From Candidatus Altimarinota bacterium (lineage in GTDB: Bacteria > Chloroflexota > Chloroflexia > Chloroflexales > Chloroflexaceae): 33,709 nucleotides of DNA. The stretch covers positions 1 through 33,709 of the forward strand of contig JAAUTF010000002.1 in assembly GCA_012031775.1 (NCBI GenBank). Reading direction: 5' to 3'. Below, piece by piece: positions 13,356 through 32,124 of this stretch (its first letter is position 1; each line of letters starts with the position of its first letter). Below the pieces are notes generated by a model. That model was not told the origin of the DNA. It made no database searches and saw only the letters and a list, made by a program, of their open reading frames with translations. A program made the position numbers and the translations under genes.

Positions 13356-14051
13356 ATGCCAGCTCCCGAAGAGCAGCCGGCGCGTATCTCACCGGCGATC
13401 GAGGATTATTTAAAAGCCATTTATATCCTGCAGCAGCAGGATGATGTCGTCAGCACGACTATGCTTGGCGAGCAGGTTGGCGCACGGCCCGGCTCGGTGA
13501 CGGGTATGATCAAGAAGCTCGACGAGATGGGCCTTGTGCAGCACACGCCGTACCAGGGGGTACAGCTCACGGCGGCAGGAAAGCGGGTTGCGCTTGAGGT
13601 TATTCGCCATCATCGTCTGATCGAACTCTTTCTGGTCGAATTTCTCGGCTATACCTGGGACGAAGTCCACGAGGAGGCCGAGCGACTTGAGCACCATATC
13701 AGTGAAAAGATGGAAGCGCGGATCGCGGCGCGGCTCGGCAATCCTGATTTTGACCCTCATGGAGATCCTATTCCGTCGCTAGAGGGCGTACTACCGACTT
13801 CGGACGATCATATGCTCGCCGATTTAGCTGTCGATGTGCCGGCACGTGTGGTACGTGTGCTCGACCAAGACGCTGAGCGCTTGCGCTATCTCGCCGATCT
13901 TGGTATGACGCCTGGTGTCTGCGTTATAGTTACGGCAAGCGCGCCGTTTGATGGCCCGCTTACCATACGTATTGGTGCGACAGCAACGCCGATCGATCGG
14001 CGGCTGGCACGTATGATTGCAGTCGAGATAGTGAAGGTTGCCACCACGTAG
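13356..14051 (+). CDS. DtxR/MntR-family metal-dependent repressor
   Basis: 231 residues with the full three-domain layout. The winged helix is at residues ~10-75 (ISPAIEDYLKAIYILQQ...GSVTGMIKKLDEMGLV). The metal-binding and dimerisation helices follow (VIRHHRLIELFLVEFLGYTWDEVHEEAERLEHHIS, with the conserved H, E and D/E ligands). The C-terminal SH3/FeoA-like domain (~155-231) ends at the stop. Length and the third domain favour a DtxR/IdeR-type over a short MntR-type protein, but Fe versus Mn cannot be decided. GGAGAG lies before ATG 13356. It is followed by bS18 and a Fur-family gene, giving a metal-responsive neighbourhood. Confidence 0.92.
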   Translation: MPAPEEQPARISPAIEDYLKAIYILQQQDDVVSTTMLGEQVGARPGSVTGMIKKLDEMGLVQHTPYQGVQLTAAGKRVALEVIRHHRLIELFLVEFLGYTWDEVHEEAERLEHHISEKMEARIAARLGNPDFDPHGDPIPSLEGVLPTSDDHMLADLAVDVPARVVRVLDQDAERLRYLADLGMTPGVCVIVTASAPFDGPLTIRIGATATPIDRRLARMIAVEIVKVATT

Positions 14052-14201
14052 TTGTGCCTGGCCGCACAGGGCTGCGGGCGATGTAAAGCTCTGTAACTCG
14101 TCTACGCGCTTGGCTAAAGCCCTGCGCTGTTGCTATGTCATACCCGGTAAAAATGTCCAGGTTCAGACGCCTAATGCCCATAGCTGCAAGGCGACGATTG
14201 C

Positions 14202-14245
14202 GTTTAAAAAATATGGTATACTATCCGTCAGGTTGTGTTTAAAAA
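14202..14245 (+). promoter_or_regulatory. Extended -10 promoter of rpsR flanked by direct repeats
   Basis: TGG followed by TATACT (14217-14222) is an extended -10. GTTTAAAAA occurs at 14202-14210 and again at 14237-14245, spaced 35 bases and bracketing the -10, a possible regulator site. Confidence 0.45.
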
Positions 14246-14287
14246 GCGCTATGAGACGCTATACATTGTATGTCTAAGGAGAAATCG

Positions 14288-14542
14288 TTGGCTATTCGTC
14301 CGAAATCAAATGGGATGCGCATGCGCTCGCGTCGCCGCGAATGTGAATTTACAAAGCTTGGCATCGTGCCCGACTACAAAGATGTGAAGCGCTTGCAAAA
14401 GTATGTGACGGCGCAGGGCAAAATTCTGCCGCGTCGTCGCACTGGCGTAACCGCGAAGATGCAGCGCCGTCTGTCAGTTGCGATCAAGCGTGCCCGGCAC
14501 CTCGCGCTGCTGCCCGCCGCTCCTAACCATACCCGCGGCTAG
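14288..14542 (+). CDS. rpsR: 30S ribosomal protein bS18
   Basis: 84 residues. The core [23 protein letters not shown]...[25 protein letters not shown] is diagnostic of bS18, which binds 16S rRNA with bS6. The N-terminal part has only one cysteine ([11 protein letters not shown]) and lacks the CxxC-type zinc-binding cysteines found in zinc-carrying forms. It stands alone instead of in the common rpsF-ssb-rpsR-rplI order, so it may be a second copy. Start TTG 14288 is chosen because AAGGAG (14276-14281) ends 6 bases before it; an ATG at 14270 would put the RBS inside the gene. Confidence 0.9.
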
Positions 14543-14589
14543 TGTGCGTGTATTGTCTCCCAGGCTGGGCTGAAGCCGCTCTGTTTGAG

Positions 14590-14628
14590 CAGCGCGGGCA
14601 ACGAGGGTTCTCCTCGCTGCCCGCGCTG
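14590..14628 (+). terminator. Hairpin between rpsR and the Fur-family gene
   Basis: 11 bp (14590-14600 with 14618-14628), an A.C mismatch, then 5 bp and a 5-base loop. It lies 47 bases past the rpsR stop with a weak T-rich stretch behind, so it may terminate or attenuate read-through into the fur-like gene. Confidence 0.5.
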
Positions 14629-14661
14629 TCGTTTCGTCGCGAATTCGAGAGGAGGTGTCTT

Positions 14662-15129
14662 ATGAGTCAACCTAGCGATGCCGCTACCGTTGGGGTCAAC
14701 CCCGAGTTCTGGGTGAAGGCGGTGCGCTCATATTGGCAGGGCGGTGGCTATCGGTTGACCGAGCCACGCCAGCGGATGCTAGACTCGATGGTGGCGTATG
14801 CTGCGCCCTTCAGTGCTGAGCAGCTCTACGCTGATATGCAGACGGTCGAAGTGGTGGCCCCGGGCCGTGCTACAGTTTACCGTACAATTGAACAGCTCAA
14901 CGGCGCTGGCTGGCTCGCCCGTATTCATACTCAGTCGGGGGAGGGCTATGTGCCTAGCTTCCCCGGCCATCTGCATCACCTCGTCTGCACGCGCTGCGGT
15001 AAAGTGGTGGCTTTCGAAGGCTGCGCGCTTGAAGGCCTTGTCGAACGGCTGGCAAGCCAGACTGATTTTATGATCGAGGGGCATCTGCTGCAATTGTACG
15101 GTCGATGTGGGGAATGCCAGCGAGTGTAG
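14662..15129 (+). CDS. Fur-family metalloregulator (Fur/Zur/PerR type)
   Basis: 155 residues. An N-terminal winged helix (GYRLTEPRQRMLDSMVAYAAPFSAEQLYADM...RATVYRTIEQLNGAGWLARI) is followed by the dimerisation domain. That carries GHLHHLVCTRCGKVV and a terminal YGRCGEC, the two Cys pairs of the structural zinc site, and the regulatory His cluster. Fe, Zn and peroxide sensing cannot be told apart by eye. Its place right behind a cysteine-poor bS18 suggests a Zur-like role, since zinc-independent ribosomal paralogues are classic Zur targets; this is inference. GAGGAGGTG precedes ATG 14662. Confidence 0.92.
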   Translation: MSQPSDAATVGVNPEFWVKAVRSYWQGGGYRLTEPRQRMLDSMVAYAAPFSAEQLYADMQTVEVVAPGRATVYRTIEQLNGAGWLARIHTQSGEGYVPSFPGHLHHLVCTRCGKVVAFEGCALEGLVERLASQTDFMIEGHLLQLYGRCGECQRV

Positions 15130-15146
15130 AGGAATAACTTATGCAA

Positions 15147-15704
15147 TCAGGCATCTGGAGAGATAGCGATGCCGTAGCTTTGGAGTTGGCTGTAGATGCT
15201 CTCGGGCACCCGGCAGAGCGTCAGGCGTTCGCGGAGATAGGCGAGGTCGAGTTGCTGACGGCGGACGATGGCTTCTGCATCGCTAAAATCGTGCTTGCCC
15301 TGTTCCGGTCCACGCCCTAACAGCAGTTTGTGGACGAGCACATCTTCGGGTGCTAGCAGATGAACGCGCGCGCCGAGCAGCGGCATCTGGCGAAGATGGG
15401 CGATCATGGGCGCGTCGAGCTGAAAGGCAGTAACGGCGCTCCCCTTACGCAGCGTGAGATCGTCGAAGAGTTTGATACCCCGCCAGATAATACGCTGGCC
15501 ATCGAATTGCACCGCCTTCTGCGCAGCACGCAGTAGCGCTACCACAGTGTTGAGTTGGCCAGGAGCAACCAGCAGGTCGACATCTTGAATGGGGCGACGA
15601 TCGCCATAAAGATGGGCAGCAGCCCCGCCGAATACCCCCCAGGTAAGCTTGCGCTCATCGAGTAGGCGCTGGACAAAACCAAGATTGCCGGCAATTAGCG
15701 ACAT
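15147..15704 (-). CDS. Nucleotidyltransferase-fold protein
   Basis: 185 residues. The pattern WGVFGGAAAHLYGDRRPIQDVDLLV (GG...DxD) near residues 22-46 is that of the NTase superfamily seen in AbiEii/MNT-type and tRNA nucleotidyltransferase-like proteins. A helical C-terminal part includes APEDVLVHKLLLGRG and HDFSDAEAIV, also found in this group. Related folds serve as toxin components (AbiEii, MenT), but there is no small partner gene resembling an AbiEi or HEPN antitoxin next to it. GAGGAGGG precedes ATG 15704. Confidence 0.7.
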   Translation of the reverse strand: MSLIAGNLGFVQRLLDERKLTWGVFGGAAAHLYGDRRPIQDVDLLVAPGQLNTVVALLRAAQKAVQFDGQRIIWRGIKLFDDLTLRKGSAVTAFQLDAPMIAHLRQMPLLGARVHLLAPEDVLVHKLLLGRGPEQGKHDFSDAEAIVRRQQLDLAYLRERLTLCRVPESIYSQLQSYGIAISPDA

Positions 15705-15813: not shown

Positions 15814-16416
15814 TTATTTTCCCAACCAGCCGGTACGAATGAGCTCCATCTCGTAAAATAGCACTTGGTGTTCGTGGCGATTGCGGCGAAAGAAGGGTCG
15901 TAGATGGGCCAGTTGAGGGTCATCCAGCAGGCGTAGGGCCGGATCGCTGCCAGCACTGCGCCAATCCTCGCCAACATGGCCAAAGCCAAGCCGCTCGTAG
16001 CAGCGCACAGCCCGTATGTTAAAGGCCGCGACATCGAGTTTCATCAGGCGAAAATCAAGTGGGCCGAAATAATGATCAAGAAAAACGCGCAAAGCTTCGG
16101 TGCCGAGCCCGCGACTTGTGTAGGGCGCACCTAAGGTGATGCCGAGCCGCGCGTGGCCTTGCCCTAGGTCGATCTCGCGCAAGGAGATACGCCCGATCAT
16201 CTGCAACTGAGCGTTGTCGACTGCCCAGACATACCGCTGTGCCGACCAGGAGGGTAAGAAATTGTCGAGCGAGTAGTAGCGCGGGATGTTCCACAGTGAG
16301 TGCAGCGCATCACCATAGGGCGGCCAGCGCTCCTGCTCAAGCGCGTCACGCCGTGTCCAAGGGCGCAGCCTGACGCCATCACCATAGAGGATCTGCGCAA
16401 GCTCGTGCTCGGTCAC
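15814..16416 (-). CDS. GNAT acetyltransferase (RimJ/RimL-like)
   Basis: 200 residues. The GNAT core runs from VRLRPWTRRDA through MIGRISLREIDLGQGHARLGITLGAPYTSRGLGTEALRVFLDHYF (acetyl-CoA binding motif with R/Q-G-x-G replaced by SRGLG) to KLDVAAFNIRAVRCYERLGF. Such enzymes acetylate protein N termini, lysines or small molecules. GTG 16416 shares four bases (GTGA) with the stop of the sirtuin-like gene and has GGGAGGGAG upstream, so translation is probably coupled. An ATG at 16455 would overlap the neighbour by more. Confidence 0.85.
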   Translation of the reverse strand: MTEHELAQILYGDGVRLRPWTRRDALEQERWPPYGDALHSLWNIPRYYSLDNFLPSWSAQRYVWAVDNAQLQMIGRISLREIDLGQGHARLGITLGAPYTSRGLGTEALRVFLDHYFGPLDFRLMKLDVAAFNIRAVRCYERLGFGHVGEDWRSAGSDPALRLLDDPQLAHLRPFFRRNRHEHQVLFYEMELIRTGWLGK

Positions 16417-17180
16417 ACCGCTCCCTCCCGGCTCAGACCGTTGCCCATCAGCCATTCTGCCACAGAGGGCAGAACAGCGGTGGCAGTATCCGCAAGACGC
16501 TCGTCGACCAGCACACTCATGGCGGTTTCGTCGCGATTGACTTCAACGAGATACGCGCCAGCGCGGCGTGCGATAAGCGGCAAGGTTGCGGCTGGCTGAG
16601 CAAGTTCGCTCGCGCCGATAATGAGGAAGACATCGGCGTGCTCGGCGGCTAGTTGTGCCTGGCGTAACAGCTGTGAGGAAACACCTTCACCATACAACAC
16701 AACATCGGGGCGCAGCCAGGCACCGCAGTGCGCACATGGCAGCGGCTCGTGGCTCTCGGTATCCCAGCTCAAGCAGAGCGTACTGCATTCGTAGCAGCGC
16801 ACTCGGTTAAGGCTACCGTTCAGTTCGAGTAAGTCACGGCTGCCGGCACGCCAGTGCAAGCCGTCTATCGTTTGGGTGATCAGGCTAAAGGCTGGAAAAT
16901 GCTGCTCCAGGTCGACGAGGGCGTAATGGGCTGGGCTAGGGGTAGCGCGTTCGGCCAGGCCGCGACGAAAGGCATACCAACCCCAGACGAGCCGCGGGTT
17001 GCGTAAAAAGGCCTGTGGCGTTGCTAGTTCGATCAAGTCGTACTCGGCCCACGATCCGGTTTGTGCGCCGCGGGCATTCGGCACACCGCATTCAGCGGCG
17101 AGGCCAGCGCCGGTAAGCACGGTAACCCGCTGAGCGTGGGCCAGTCTGTTTAGCAGTCGGGGCGGCAATTCGTAGCTCAT
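16413..17180 (-). CDS. Sirtuin (Sir2)-like protein with altered catalytic residues
   Basis: 255 residues covering the whole Sir2 fold: NAD motif VLTGAGLAAECGVPNARG (residues 21-38), LATPQAF, TQTIDGLH, ELNGSL, two zinc Cys pairs (C129/C132 and C149/C152), DVVLYGEGV and GASELAQPAA. Canonical sirtuins read GAGxSxxSGIPxFR, TQNIDGLH and ELHGS. Here the general-base His is Asn121, the NAD-contacting Asn is Thr104, and the PxFR Phe is Ala36. Standard deacylase chemistry is therefore doubtful; NAD or ADP-ribose binding may remain. It lies 18 bases downstream of the pseudokinase gene and overlaps the GNAT gene. AAGGAAGG precedes ATG 17180. Confidence 0.85.
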   Translation of the reverse strand: MSYELPPRLLNRLAHAQRVTVLTGAGLAAECGVPNARGAQTGSWAEYDLIELATPQAFLRNPRLVWGWYAFRRGLAERATPSPAHYALVDLEQHFPAFSLITQTIDGLHWRAGSRDLLELNGSLNRVRCYECSTLCLSWDTESHEPLPCAHCGAWLRPDVVLYGEGVSSQLLRQAQLAAEHADVFLIIGASELAQPAATLPLIARRAGAYLVEVNRDETAMSVLVDERLADTATAVLPSVAEWLMGNGLSREGAV

Positions 17181-17198
17181 CCAACCTTCCTTATCATA

Positions 17199-18575
17199 TC
17201 AAGTGCCAGGGCGAGCGAGATAATTCAGCGACATCCAGCCTTCTACGGTGCGCCCATCGATGGTGACGCGCACCCGAATCCACGAGACATTGTCGACGAT
17301 GAGCGGGCCTTCGAGTTGTTGCACCACGCTGCCGTTGGGCGCAATATCGATCACCGTGTTGTCAGCGCTGAGGCCGGGGCTAGTACGTAGATTGAGGCCG
17401 CCTTCGTTGTTAACAACCCACAACGCATCGCCGCCGAGGCGATCACGCAGCCAGCCCAGTGGGTCGATACCGGGAAGGGATGGCAGCTCGATAGCGACCC
17501 GATCGCTTAAGTAGCGCACGCCGAGGTAGCTCGCGAAGGCGACGCTGCCGATCAGGGCGAGCATGACGATCCAGGCGGTCAATCCGCCCGCTTTGCGCTG
17601 GCGTTTTACCTGGGCAGGGCTCAACGGATGCAGCTGCCCGGGTGCCACGGGTTGAGCTGTATGCACAGGCGGTGCGAGTGGTGTCTGCGCCGGGGCTTGC
17701 TGGGGGGTGCGCAGCGGTGTGCGGCGTGGGCGTGGTAACTCGGCGGGTGAGAGCGGCTGTGTGCTTGATCCTAGCTCACGCCAGAGCGTATCGAGCGCAA
17801 CGGCGAGTTGCTGTGCATCGACATAACGATGTTCGGGGAAGCGTGCTGTAGCCTTGCCGATAAGCTGATCGAGAGCGGGCAGATAGAGTTGTGGCCGTAG
17901 CTGTGCCAGCGACGGCAGCTGGGCTGTCTGATCGCCCGGGCGTGTGCCGCTGAGAAGCTCGAAAAGCAGGATGCCGAGGGCGTATACGGCCGCTGCGGTG
18001 GAAGGTGCTGCACCACTTACACGCTCGGGAGCACGGTAATACACGAGATCCTGTGGTACTTCCTTCGGCGGTAACAGCCAACTTTCGACAAGTTTCACGC
18101 GCCCGTCGTCGACGAGCAAGACGTTGCTGCTGCTGACCGGTGGATGCACGATCCCGGCGGGCAGTGCGGGCGAGCGATAGCTCTGGCACATCGCCACGGC
18201 TCCCGAGACCTGGCGCAGATACAGCAGCGCCTGCTCTGGGCTCAGCGCTCCAAGTTCACGGAGCGGGCGCCCAGTGATATACTCAGTCACCATAAAGGGC
18301 CGATCGCCGACCTCGCCGCTATCAAAAATTTCGAGCAGCGCGGGATGAGAGCGGCGGGCGCTTTCGGCGGCCTCGGTGACGAAGCGCGCGCGGATGCGTT
18401 CCTGACCGATCAGCTCTTTGCGCAGCAGGTGTAATAATACGGTACGCTGGAGGCGCTCGTCGGTGGCATGGTAGACTGTGGCCAGGCGATTGTCGCCCAG
18501 ACGCACTTCAACCCGATAACGCCCAAGCACGAGCGGCGCGGTGATAGGTTTAGCGGCGGAGTTGGGTGGTATCAT
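17199..18575 (-). CDS. Membrane-anchored Ser/Thr pseudokinase with C-terminal SH3b domain
   Basis: 458 residues. The kinase-like domain (~18-290) follows the bacterial PknB pattern but lacks key residues: the glycine loop is LGDNRLATVY, the VAIK Lys is Leu48, HRD reads HPP (144-146), and DFG reads ESW (164-166). The helix-C Glu region and the APE motif (RAPE) remain. A Pro-rich linker, a transmembrane helix (LTAWIVMLALIGSVAFASYL) and an extracytoplasmic bacterial SH3 domain (GLNLRTSPG...WMSLNYL) follow. It is likely a sensor or scaffold rather than a kinase. ATG 18575 overlaps the methyltransferase TGA as TGATG. Confidence 0.85.
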   Translation of the reverse strand: MIPPNSAAKPITAPLVLGRYRVEVRLGDNRLATVYHATDERLQRTVLLHLLRKELIGQERIRARFVTEAAESARRSHPALLEIFDSGEVGDRPFMVTEYITGRPLRELGALSPEQALLYLRQVSGAVAMCQSYRSPALPAGIVHPPVSSSNVLLVDDGRVKLVESWLLPPKEVPQDLVYYRAPERVSGAAPSTAAAVYALGILLFELLSGTRPGDQTAQLPSLAQLRPQLYLPALDQLIGKATARFPEHRYVDAQQLAVALDTLWRELGSSTQPLSPAELPRPRRTPLRTPQQAPAQTPLAPPVHTAQPVAPGQLHPLSPAQVKRQRKAGGLTAWIVMLALIGSVAFASYLGVRYLSDRVAIELPSLPGIDPLGWLRDRLGGDALWVVNNEGGLNLRTSPGLSADNTVIDIAPNGSVVQQLEGPLIVDNVSWIRVRVTIDGRTVEGWMSLNYLARPGT

Positions 18576-19257
18576 CACTTTGTGGCTATCACAAGCTCGT
18601 AGTGACCTGGCTGCCACGGCACAATATGGATCGTGTGCAGGCCAAGTTGTTCGAGTCGGCTGCGCATCGCATTACTTGTTATACCCCCGCCCGGGCAAGA
18701 GCCGCGCCCAGCGATCGGGGTATTTGCTGACAATAAAGGTACCGCCTGGCCGCAAGACACGCGCCATCTCGGCCAGGGCACGCTGCGGTTGCGCGAAAAA
18801 ACTCCAGCGCTTCCAGGCAGGTGACGAGATCGAAGCTTTCGTCCGGCCAACGTAGTTGCTCGGCGCGGCCCACTATCCAGCTGACAGATGACACTTCCCG
18901 CTCCTGTTGCCTGGCTTGAGCGCGTGCCAGCATCGCCGGCGTGAGATCGAGACCAACGACATGCCCGGTGAAGATGGGCGTTGCGGCAAGCAAGAGAGGA
19001 ACGCGCCCGGTGCCGGTCGCGACATCGAGCACGCTGGGCACAGGATAACGCACGACGAACGATAAGAGCAAGGGCTTAAGCACCGCATCGTCGTGAGCAG
19101 CCAGGGCGTGGCGCACCGCATCGTAGTGCGGCGCACCGAAATGGTATAGCAGGCGCACCGCACGCGGGCCGAAGTACGTGAGCTCGCCGACAAACAGCAA
19201 CCAGTACGTCAGCAGCGCCAGCACACAGAGAGTTGCAAAGCCAAGCAATAGAGCCAT
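18575..19257 (-). CDS. Class I SAM-dependent methyltransferase with N-terminal membrane helix (two frameshifts)
   Basis: About 227 residues. One transmembrane helix (MALLLGFATLCVLALLTYWL) is followed by the Methyltransf_11/25 fold: SVLDVATGTGRVP (motif I), VVGLDLTPAML, FDLVTCLEALEF and VLRPGGTFIVSK. Two extra bases break the frame, one in A6 at 18796-18801 and one in C5 at 18684-18688 (plus-strand positions). Removing one from each gives an uninterrupted protein ending ...HYELVIATK. The substrate is unknown; a lipid or quinone is possible given the anchor. It is the first gene of an operon with the pseudokinase, sirtuin-like and GNAT genes. Confidence 0.8.
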
Positions 19258-19264
19258 GGCCTTG

Positions 19265-19273
19265 ATTATAGCA
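19265..19273 (-). promoter_or_regulatory. Extended -10 promoter, leaderless start of the methyltransferase operon
   Basis: TGC-TATAAT on the minus strand (complement 19265-19273), with only 7 bases between TATAAT and ATG 19257. Transcription would begin at or next to the start codon; no RBS is present. Confidence 0.55.
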
Positions 19274-19312: not shown

Positions 19313-20835
19313 TTAGAGGCGAACGATAAGCTCCATCAGCTTGCGACGGTAGGTGCCGCCGTTAAGCTTAAACCAGCGCTCGGGCAGTTCGGCGATGAGG
19401 CGGTCGCGTTCAGCATAGCGCCCGGCGACATAGGCGTCGAGCGCGGGGCGCGCTGCTGCATCGACCGATAACGAAGCAACATAGTCAGCGGCGACGGAGA
19501 TATCGTTAATAGTGCCGAGGTGATCCTGAAACCCCATCAGCGGTTCGAGCGCCGCCTGGACGCGCTCGCCGAAGATGTCCTCGAACATCTCAAGCAAGTA
19601 GCGCAGATGTTTTCCGGCGATGCGCATCTCGTGCAGCTCTTCCGGATCGTCGGCCAGACTCACGATACTATCATCGGGAACATGCGAGCGCAATGCCTCG
19701 TAGTAGCCCCAGATCGTGCTGCCGGCCATATCGCGTACCCGTCGCCGCATAGACCACTTATCGCAGTGGCCGGTGATAAAGCTCGCGAAGTCTCGCTTGA
19801 ATTCGGCGTAGGCTGCATTATCGAGGCGGGCTAGCAATTGCTCGTAGGCTGCGGCACGGTCGGCCTGCAGCGACGCGATAAGCGGGCTGAGCCCGGCGGC
19901 ATCGTCTGGCGTGAGCGCGGCGGCGGCGGCCTGAATATTGGCGATGAAAACATCGGTGTCGCGAACTGCACCAGCCGCCCGCGCGATGCGGCGCAGCCCG
20001 CGACGATACATGCGGATCTCCGGGGCAGGTGCTACGCCGTCGAGCACCTGAAGAATCACGCGCATACGCCGCGTGGCGACGCGCATCTCGTGAATGCCCT
20101 CGGGTCTTGGTCGTCGCGAATGTCGCGCTCGGCCAACATCAGGCGGCGGAAGTGCCGTCGGAGCAAGACAAGGCCAAGATCGGCCAGCGCTGCATTTGAG
20201 CTTTCGTACCAGGGCTTTAACAGTGCGCCGCCCTCGTTCTCATCGCCGTCGTCGCTGTCGCTATCCGCGATGGCACCAGAGGTGCTGATCTGCAGCTCTG
20301 CGTTGAAAACGCGCTGCCAGAGATCGGCCTTGCTGATGGCACGCGCACCATCGGCATCGCTCTGTGGGCCGCTGAGCAGCAAGCGCATGCCGCCTTCGGT
20401 CTGTTCGCTGCCGACGATCTGCGTCGTCTGGCTCTGCGAATAGTCGAGGCCATCGGCGACACGCACGAGCGCGGCGAGCTGCAAGGCCAGGGTCTGTTTA
20501 TTTTTGCCGAGTGCTACGAAGGTTGGTTCAGTTTGCGGGCGCACCTTCTTACGATGGAAAGCGACGAGTGCCGCGATCAGGGCGCGCTCGTCGGCGTCGA
20601 GATCGGCAATCGGTTGCCGCAGCAAGATGTCGCGCCCAACGATATGATGCTGCGCCGGGTCGGTGGTGAGGCCGACATTGTGCAGCAAAGCGCCGAGCTC
20701 GAGCCACTGGCGGCTCGCGGCAGGCAAGGGACGTGCCTCGGCGACGATATCAAATAATTCAAGCGCCCTGTCGGCAACGTGGCGGGCGTGGGCAGTATCG
20801 ACTTGGTAGGTCTCCAGTAGTTCCGTAATCTTCAT
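19313..20835 (-). CDS. HD-CHAD protein (Ppx/GppA-type HD domain plus CHAD), one frameshift
   Basis: About 507 residues. N-terminal ~1-190 resembles the C-terminal HD-like domain of Ppx/GppA exopolyphosphatases (LELGALLHNVGLTTD, ERALIAALVAFHRKK, VRVADGLDYSQ). C-terminal ~235-507 is a CHAD domain of paired helical repeats with IHEMRVATRRMRVILQV and ELHEMRIAGKHLRYLLEMFE, whose conserved His/Arg/Lys bind polyphosphate. The halves are in different frames, meeting at about 20098-20102. One missing base restores DDQDPEGIHEMRVATRR. It follows a CYTH gene, a common partner of CHAD. A role in polyphosphate binding or turnover is likely. Confidence 0.85.
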
Positions 20836-20957: not shown

Positions 20958-21571
20958 TTATACAGTTGCAGCCAGCAAAGCGAGCCCGCGCGCTAATTTT
21001 GAGCGTGGCTCTGGCACGATCGCGATATGCTCGCGCAGCGCAACGGCTAGAGCGTCGAGGTCGGCACGTGTGCCAGCCTGCCGCAGCTCGATCTCCAGTT
21101 CGATGATCGGCTCACGGCGAGCGCCGACGACGATTACTCCATGGTCGAGTGCTAGCTCGGCGACCGCCCGACCACCCTGCTTGACATAAACGACGCGCCG
21201 CTGCGTGTCGATCGTCAGCAGTGCAACGAGCGCAGCGTCGGCGAGCAATCCGAGCGCAATAGCGCGCGCTTCGCCGACGGGCCATGTCGCCGGATGCGGT
21301 GTCTCGCTAGGAAATTCCCACTCGGCGCGCTGATGCACTCCATCTTCCACGGTGCTCGGCCCTTTTAAAGTAATTAGGCTGTGTGCGCCATGATGCGCCG
21401 TCGTAGGCTGTAACGCGCATGCTGCAAACGTCTGTCAACACTGTCAAAGTAGATATTGTGCTGGTCTTCTGTTGGGCCGCTTTGCAGCTGGTAGTCGCCC
21501 AAGCTGGTGAGCGCGGCGACGACATCGAGCTGTGCCTCGTGTGCCAGCCGGTATTTGGCTTCGGTTTCCAT
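20958..21571 (-). CDS. CYTH-domain triphosphatase (one frameshift)
   Basis: About 204 residues. It begins with the ExExK signature METEAKYRL, then YFDSVDRRLQHARYSLRRRI, TLKGPSTVEDGVHQRAEWEFP, VVYVKQGGRAVAELALDHG and PIIELEIELRQAG, the alternating charged strands of the CYTH tunnel fold. Such enzymes hydrolyse inorganic triphosphate or ThTP, or form cyclic nucleotides (class IV cyclase); the CHAD neighbour favours tripolyphosphate. The frame changes near 21385-21390, where one G appears to be missing. ATG 21571 lacks a clear RBS; the next gene on this strand is the HD-CHAD protein. Confidence 0.83.
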
Positions 21572-31176: not shown

Positions 31177-32109
31177 TTACAAACGCCCAACGGCAACAAG
31201 CGCCAGAATGATCACACCGGCGATAATACGATAGATGCCAAAGGGAATGAACGTATTGCGCGAGACATAGCGCAGCAACCAGTCGATGCTGAGCCAGCCG
31301 ACAATCATCGCGACCGTTGCGCCAAGCAGGAGGTTCCCCCAGTCGGATGGTGCGATCTGGTCGAAGCTGCCGATCAGATCGACAAGTGTGGCGAGGCCAA
31401 GCGTCGGCACAGCAAGGTAGAAGGAGAAGCGTGTTGCCACTTCGCGGCTGAGTCCGGCGAAGAGACCGCCAAAAATTGAGGCACCTGAGCGTGACACTCC
31501 CGGGATAAGCGCTAAGGTCTGGGCGATGCCGACGCCCAGCGCCTGGCCGTAGCTGATCTGCTCGAGATCGGCAGTCCGTGCAGCTTTACGTGGTAGTCGT
31601 TCGACAATAATAAAGACGATGCCGCCGAGGATAAGCGAGGTGGCGATGACTTGTGGGCTCTCGAAGAGCACTGTTTTGATCCAGTCGCGTGCGAGCAGGC
31701 CGATGATCGCCGCAGGCAAAAACGCCACGAGCACTGCGATCCAGAAGCGGCGCGCGTTGTGGGTGGCCGACGGTGTTTCCCCCTGGCCGAGCACAGCGCG
31801 CAACTGGCTAAAGAGATCGCGGAAATAATAGGCGACCACCGAAATCACTGTGCCAAACTGAATAAAAATTTCGAAGGTTCCGCCGATACTGCCGCCGTAA
31901 TCGAGGAGATCGGCAGCAATCAGCAGATGCCCGGTCGACGAGATCGGCAAGAACTCGGTGAGGCCCTGCACGACGCCCAGCACGATGACTTTCCACCATT
32001 CGGGGTTACTCGGTACAGTGAGGACGAGGCCGAGCACGAGCAAAACGAAGGCCGCGATCATCAAGGGCATCGGCAGGCGGACATTCGATTGAACAGCTGT
32101 GTTTTGCAT
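31177..32109 (-). CDS. uppP: Undecaprenyl-diphosphate phosphatase
   Basis: 310 residues. Recycles undecaprenyl pyrophosphate to the monophosphate carrier for cell-wall and polysaccharide synthesis. The family motifs GVVQGLTEFLPISSTGHLLIA (first active-site loop) and LALIPGVSRSGASIFGGLFAGLSR (second loop) are both intact, and about eight hydrophobic helices span the protein. An N-terminal extension with an extra helix (PLMIAAFVLLVLGLVLTV) precedes the conserved start, making it slightly longer than the usual ~270 residues. ATG 32109 has no RBS; a TGC-TATAAT promoter sits 6 bases upstream. Confidence 0.94.
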   Translation of the reverse strand: MQNTAVQSNVRLPMPLMIAAFVLLVLGLVLTVPSNPEWWKVIVLGVVQGLTEFLPISSTGHLLIAADLLDYGGSIGGTFEIFIQFGTVISVVAYYFRDLFSQLRAVLGQGETPSATHNARRFWIAVLVAFLPAAIIGLLARDWIKTVLFESPQVIATSLILGGIVFIIVERLPRKAARTADLEQISYGQALGVGIAQTLALIPGVSRSGASIFGGLFAGLSREVATRFSFYLAVPTLGLATLVDLIGSFDQIAPSDWGNLLLGATVAMIVGWLSIDWLLRYVSRNTFIPFGIYRIIAGVIILALVAVGRL

Positions 32110-32115
32110 ACCAGG

Positions 32116-32124
32116 ATTATAGCA
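32116..32124 (-). promoter_or_regulatory. Extended -10 promoter, leaderless start of uppP
   Basis: TGC-TATAAT on the minus strand (TATAAT complement 32116-32121), six bases before ATG 32109. The arrangement repeats that of the methyltransferase operon. Confidence 0.55.

Follow-up and report, generated by a model that had tools for sequence, protein, structure and literature searches.

A Chloroflexales-restricted membrane pseudokinase at the hub of a modular gene cluster

The stretch of DNA analysed here, called the window, comprises 33,709 nucleotides of a Chloroflexaceae assembly and contains a compact cluster of minus-strand genes (Table 1). Open reading frames (ORFs) and Pfam matches give, from the promoter side, a methyltransferase, a pseudokinase with a transmembrane (TM) segment and an SH3-like domain, a sirtuin-like protein and a GNAT acetyltransferase. 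The methyltransferase and kinase genes overlap in TGATG, the kinase and sirtuin genes are 18 bases apart, and the sirtuin and GNAT genes overlap in GTGA. An earlier note on this DNA had described these four genes, and their coordinates, junctions and expected domains are borne out. The genes are linked as it proposed, but the operon is longer, with a nucleotidyltransferase-like protein (NTR) encoded by a fifth gene on the same strand. The kinase, sirtuin, GNAT and NTR reading frames are unbroken in the window, and the operon is a real gene cluster.

Table 1. Positions of the operon features in the window.
Feature	Position	Strand	Basis
Extended -10 promoter, TGCTATAAT	19265..19273	-	7 nt 5' of methyltransferase ATG; TATAAT in 19/19 loci
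Class I SAM methyltransferase gene, membrane-anchored, frame-broken	18575..19257	-	Pfam Methyltransf_25/11; tblastn with single-ORF relatives
Pseudokinase-TM-SH3-like	17199..18575	-	Pfam Pkinase; AlphaFold model; Foldseek; catalytic columns of 50 orthologues
Sirtuin-like protein	16413..17180	-	Pfam SIR2, 136 bits; residue table
GNAT acetyltransferase, GTG start	15814..16416	-	Pfam Acetyltransf_3; alignment; model and Foldseek
Nucleotidyltransferase-like protein, GG...DVD motif	15147..15704	-	PF14907, 30.3 bits, slightly below cut-off; GNAT association in relatives

The single extended -10 promoter that had been proposed ahead of these genes is upheld by comparison across genomes. TATAAT lies 6-7 nt 5' of the methyltransferase ATG at all 19 methyltransferase loci, which belong to two families, and the extended-position TG is present at 18 of them. 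This arrangement is far above chance: only 30 of the 17,715 ATGs in the DNA of all loci have TATAAT at this spacing, and 19 of these 30 are methyltransferase starts. The conserved element is thus strongly supported as a real promoter. A simple sigma-70 scan requires a -35 box and for that reason detected nothing ahead of the operon; the cross-genome comparison decided the question. Since a start site about 7 nt past the -10 element would fall on the ATG, the methyltransferase-led mRNA is predicted to be leaderless. Leaderless genes have been predicted in Chloroflexi (PMC3160421), and in Deinococcus a -10 box commonly stands 6-7 bp ahead of the ORF (PMC12340547). At loci without the methyltransferase, TGCTATAAT often precedes the kinase instead, for example 7 nt from the kinase ATG in genome G002 (L085). 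No such element occurs upstream of the GNAT gene at any of 40 loci, and a candidate precedes the NTR gene in just 1 of 27, so that one transcript across all five genes is likely. A second copy of TGCTATAAT in the window (32109-32124, minus strand) lies six nt 5' of the ATG of a 310-aa ORF, probably another leaderless gene.

The methyltransferase, which had been judged intact, is not. By tblastn with single-ORF relatives, its coding sequence runs through three successive frames (about 19257-18796, 18800-18681 and 18694-18575); the relatives align over about 19245-18796, 18800-18681 and 18675-18578. The first break falls on a T6 run (18801-18796) and the second close to a G5 run (18688), whereas 18 related loci have the gene as one ORF. 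Programmed frameshifting is unlikely, since about 110 bases would have to hold two shifts that no relative shows. The neighbouring CYTH gene (20958-21571) is likewise split across two frames, with profile positions 3-61 and 82-178 in separate ORFs. The HD (Ppx/GppA domain III) and CHAD ORFs at 19313-20835 apparently represent one HD-CHAD protein with a frame change near 20056-20086, as judged from where the two ORFs end. Assembly indels are therefore a serious alternative for the methyltransferase breaks, and the stretch from methyltransferase to CYTH either contains many indel errors or is in decay; the assembly is 71% complete.

The pseudokinase domain spans about residues 14-270, followed by a long helix with a membrane segment (320-359) and an SH3-like domain (385-449). 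The AlphaFold model (pLDDT 84.5) shows the kinase fold, the long membrane helix and the C-terminal SH3-like domain, and its closest structures in Foldseek are PknA and PknB. Across 50 orthologues the ATP-binding β3 lysine is always replaced, by His in 44. The HRDxKPxN loop is replaced by HPPxSSxN, with the first Pro (in place of Arg) and the second Ser in 50/50; the HRD Asp is absent from all 50, and Pro occupies its position in 48. In the DFG column, Asp gives way to Glu in 35 sequences and to Ala in one and is kept in 14, while Gly is Trp throughout. Neither the lysine nor the HRD Asp of an active Hanks-type Ser/Thr kinase is thus found in any of the 50. The earlier note had listed K, D and D as lost in the window protein; this stands for Lys to His and for HRD Asp to Pro, but the change of DFG Asp to Glu is conservative, as 49 of 50 orthologues have Asp or Glu there. 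That the altered residues would be shared by relatives is confirmed, since they are fixed in all 50 orthologues. The conserved HPPxSSxN and the replaced lysine point to purifying selection rather than decay; judged from these columns, the non-catalytic state of the family is strongly conserved. The domain may nevertheless have kept nucleotide binding or have some other catalytic activity.

An orthologue was found in 40 of 400 sampled Chloroflexota genomes. All 40 are Chloroflexales, an order of photosynthetic green bacteria and their relatives, and in a class-wide search every match above 240 bits fell within this order. On this sampling the pseudokinase is an order-restricted family, and the cultured species of the order presumably include Chloroflexus aurantiacus. 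In sequence and fold, the best match is to PknB/PASTA-type kinases, with which it shares the kinase fold, the membrane helix and a presumably extracytoplasmic C-terminal part; it differs in having an SH3-like domain instead of PASTA repeats and in lacking the lysine and the HRD Asp. The PASTA kinase model NF033483 scores 143.9 bits against a cut-off of 450, and the match stops at residue 351.

Bacterial pseudokinases have hardly been studied, and the Chloroflexales family keeps a fixed and unusual replacement of the catalytic loop throughout the order. The available part of a 2025 review describes the families ActPs1-3, GLW, DLHK, CP1 and DYD, which were compared at the VAIK, HRD and DFG positions; that part mentions no Chloroflexi and describes no HPP motif (PMC12599244). 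As far as its text and the examples of its Table 1 allow comparison, by motif and example sequences only, HPPxSS differs from both the GLW motif and these examples. The mycobacterial pseudokinase MviN (ActPs3) likewise sits in the membrane, has degraded motifs and belongs to an envelope context, but in the same part of the review its motifs read VALT / Lsidhpsr / Y--, against HLL / HPPxSSxN / E-x-W in the window protein, in which no flippase part was seen. GLW pseudokinases, as described there, share a membrane helix C-terminal to the pseudokinase and hydrophobic residues flanking the lost lysine; they are mainly proteobacterial and have GLW at the HRD position, where the Chloroflexales family has HPP (PMC12599244).

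The loci compared belong to Chloroflexales; we take Chloroflexus aurantiacus, Roseiflexus RS-1 and Herpetosiphon to be among the relatives. Of about 50 loci counted, 19 have methyltransferase-kinase, 22 have GNAT directly after the kinase with no sirtuin, 18 (L190 included) have kinase-sirtuin(-sirtuin)-GNAT and 11 have kinase-sirtuin but no GNAT. The kinase lies beside a methyltransferase, sirtuin or GNAT gene at nearly every locus, and methyltransferase orthologues adjoin the kinase in 22 of 23 genomes. The partner combinations vary while the kinase is constant; by gene content the cluster is thus modular, with the pseudokinase as its hub. The proposed synteny holds for a core conserved across the order, but the four-gene set is no conserved unit: among 61 genomes the exact set occurs in the window only, which is also the only Chloroflexaceae locus with both methyltransferase and sirtuin. 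At L102-L106 (family f2), a PlsC-like acyltransferase (PF01553) follows the kinase-sirtuin pair in place of GNAT, and at the Chloroflexus-type loci L077, L081, L083, L084 and L087, from which the methyltransferase is absent, the kinase is preceded by a PLP-aminotransferase-like gene. PADLOC matched only the kinase and methyltransferase domains of the cluster and none of the sirtuin, GNAT or NTR proteins, which gives a reading as anti-phage defence no support beyond generic domains.

The window sirtuin has a SIR2 fold (cut-off 24 bits) with four Zn cysteines, and its closest solved relative is Archaeoglobus Sir2. The reported change of the catalytic His to Asn is correct, and the residue table adds Asn to Thr and Phe to Ala. 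With Asn and Thr in place of the deacylase His and Asn, the protein probably no longer deacylates. The Arg, the Asp, the GxS serine and the ribose-site Asn are retained, and the residues suggest that the protein is either a regulatory subunit that binds NAD/ADP-ribose or a copy in decay. Co-conservation of the altered residues, which the earlier note had suggested checking, does not extend from the kinase to the sirtuin: in Chloroflexaceae the locus sirtuins have the catalytic His in 9 of 9 and the Asn in 8 of 9, and six relatives in family f2 are canonical. Canonical residues in close relatives had been named in that note as an outcome that would refute its proposal, and for the sirtuin His this outcome is observed. 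Roseiflexaceae often have two tandem sirtuins, one canonical and one in which Asn replaces His and either Ser or Thr replaces Asn, whereas in Herpetosiphonaceae the kinase-proximal sirtuin retains His and has Ala for Asn. In a tree, the window sirtuin lies on a long branch (0.63-0.70) and groups with the degenerate Roseiflexaceae and Herpetosiphonaceae copies (96/92), which are also long-branched; placing it among the Chloroflexaceae sirtuins is not rejected by the AU test (p 0.21 and 0.31). The tree is thus compatible with more than a single ancient origin of the degenerate copies, and these sequences suggest that catalysis was lost either more than once or long ago. These losses, which in Roseiflexaceae stand beside an intact copy, offer a natural test of sirtuins as non-enzymatic NAD sensors. 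The window genome contains two further sirtuins with canonical residues. One canonical sirtuin of this genome (L193, 1926-4085) is in frame with an apparent S41-type peptidase, giving 719 aa, possibly through a lost stop or an assembly indel.

The GNAT is intact, as had been stated: the alignment contains the acetyl-CoA motif R-G-x-G, with G116, G118 and E120 invariant, and the model (pLDDT 88) matches GNATs. Foldseek places it with SpeG/AAC(6')-like proteins; the structures closest to it are those of polyamine and aminoglycoside acetyltransferases, not of protein-lysine ones, at a weak identity of about 20%. A nucleotidyltransferase gene lies 3' of GNAT at 26 loci. In Herpetosiphonaceae the two genes are paired at a place separate from kinase-sirtuin; in genome G053 they lie at 4.179 Mb and kinase-sirtuin at 4.01 Mb.

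The observed order of the genes, their promoter, the conserved pseudokinase, the lost residues and the modular make-up tentatively favour, at a probability of roughly 45%, the view that the window holds the form taken in one lineage by an ancestral envelope-signalling operon of Chloroflexales with a dead kinase at its centre, in which a PknB-derived scaffold is combined with exchangeable enzymes. The pseudokinase would descend from PknB-type kinases. Its kinase-like domain would be cytoplasmic, a single helix would cross the membrane, and the SH3-like domain would face the wall, where it could read the cell wall or periplasm by sensing a ligand. It would most likely act as a scaffold or allosteric partner, its fold and invariant HPPxSS loop recruiting a cytosolic protein, which could for instance be one of the enzymes of the operon or an active kinase of the PknB type. 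As accessory modifiers, the methyltransferase, sirtuin, GNAT and nucleotidyltransferase would be swapped in and out. Contacts between the operon products, and the way in which sensing would lead to an output, are what we infer from this arrangement. The partners are too variable to imply a single output pathway. A more specific version, in which the wall-sensing HPPxSS pseudokinase controls the exchangeable enzymes and a sirtuin has repeatedly been turned into a non-catalytic NAD or ADP-ribose sensor subunit, sometimes beside its active copy (Roseiflexus), would amount to order-specific envelope signalling and is improbable. The parts are of known kinds; neither the gene combination nor the pseudokinase family appears to have been described, and literature searches on sirtuin, pseudokinase and Chloroflexi and on sirtuin-GNAT operons in Roseiflexus or Herpetosiphon returned nothing relevant. 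What is new is a pseudokinase family that spans the order, together with the repeated decay of sirtuins, and not the set of four genes, a peculiarity of this assembly.

Compatible with the ancestral-operon reading, and somewhat unlikely, is that methyltransferase and sirtuin are decaying in the window lineage as relics of a fuller ancestral locus. The two methyltransferase breaks, the three lost active-site residues and long branch of the sirtuin, and the joint presence of both genes at this Chloroflexaceae locus alone are consistent with such decay; against it, the sirtuin ORF is full length and retains its four Zn cysteines along with further NAD residues, and the frame breaks in the CYTH and apparently HD-CHAD genes make assembly indels a serious alternative for the methyltransferase.

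Operon membership may also reflect co-expression only. It is rather unlikely that the genes are functionally unrelated and merely co-regulated, with two old modules, methyltransferase-kinase-sirtuin and GNAT-nucleotidyltransferase, joined by rearrangement under a common promoter. The separate Herpetosiphonaceae pair, the absence of sirtuin, methyltransferase or NTR from many loci and the unrelated genes flanking the cluster (e.g., bS18 and Fur) would fit this view, but the genes adjoin tightly, often with overlaps, and the methyltransferase-kinase and GNAT-NTR pairings are almost obligatory.

The idea put forward in the earlier note, a GNAT and a sirtuin forming a reversible acylation or NAD-sensing switch with the pseudokinase as read-out, is disfavoured and quite improbable. 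Within it, the membrane pseudokinase as a read-out is still a plausible element. GNAT/sirtuin acetylation pairs such as Pat-CobB and AcuA-SrtN are known, and GNAT lies beside the sirtuin in the window as well; the two genes overlap at several loci (e.g., the window, G008, G001 and G017), and most Chloroflexaceae locus sirtuins keep their catalytic residues. In Chloroflexales, however, co-occurrence is inconsistent: GNAT without a locus sirtuin and sirtuin without GNAT together account for 33 of about 51 loci, and the Herpetosiphonaceae GNAT travels with the nucleotidyltransferase. The resemblance of GNAT to small-molecule acetyltransferases and the missing deacylase His of the probably inactive window sirtuin weaken the switch further.

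A class-M-like ADP-ribosyl transferase working without the catalytic His is highly improbable and was rejected on residues: class M sirtuins (SirTM), which have also replaced this His, by Gln, and act as transferases, require Asn118 (N118A is inactive; PMC4518038) and belong to a macrodomain operon, whereas the window sirtuin has Asn for His and Thr for Asn, with no macrodomain, LplA2 or GcvH-L gene seen beside it.

Beyond the NTR gene, Fur-type and MntR/DtxR-type metal regulators (13356-15129, plus strand) are directed toward the operon, and a Fur gene stands at the equivalent place in many relatives. A short ORF (14270-14542, plus strand) resembles ribosomal protein bS18 by eye, and similar ORFs occur near the cluster in other genomes; its proximity to a RimI-like GNAT may be coincidence.
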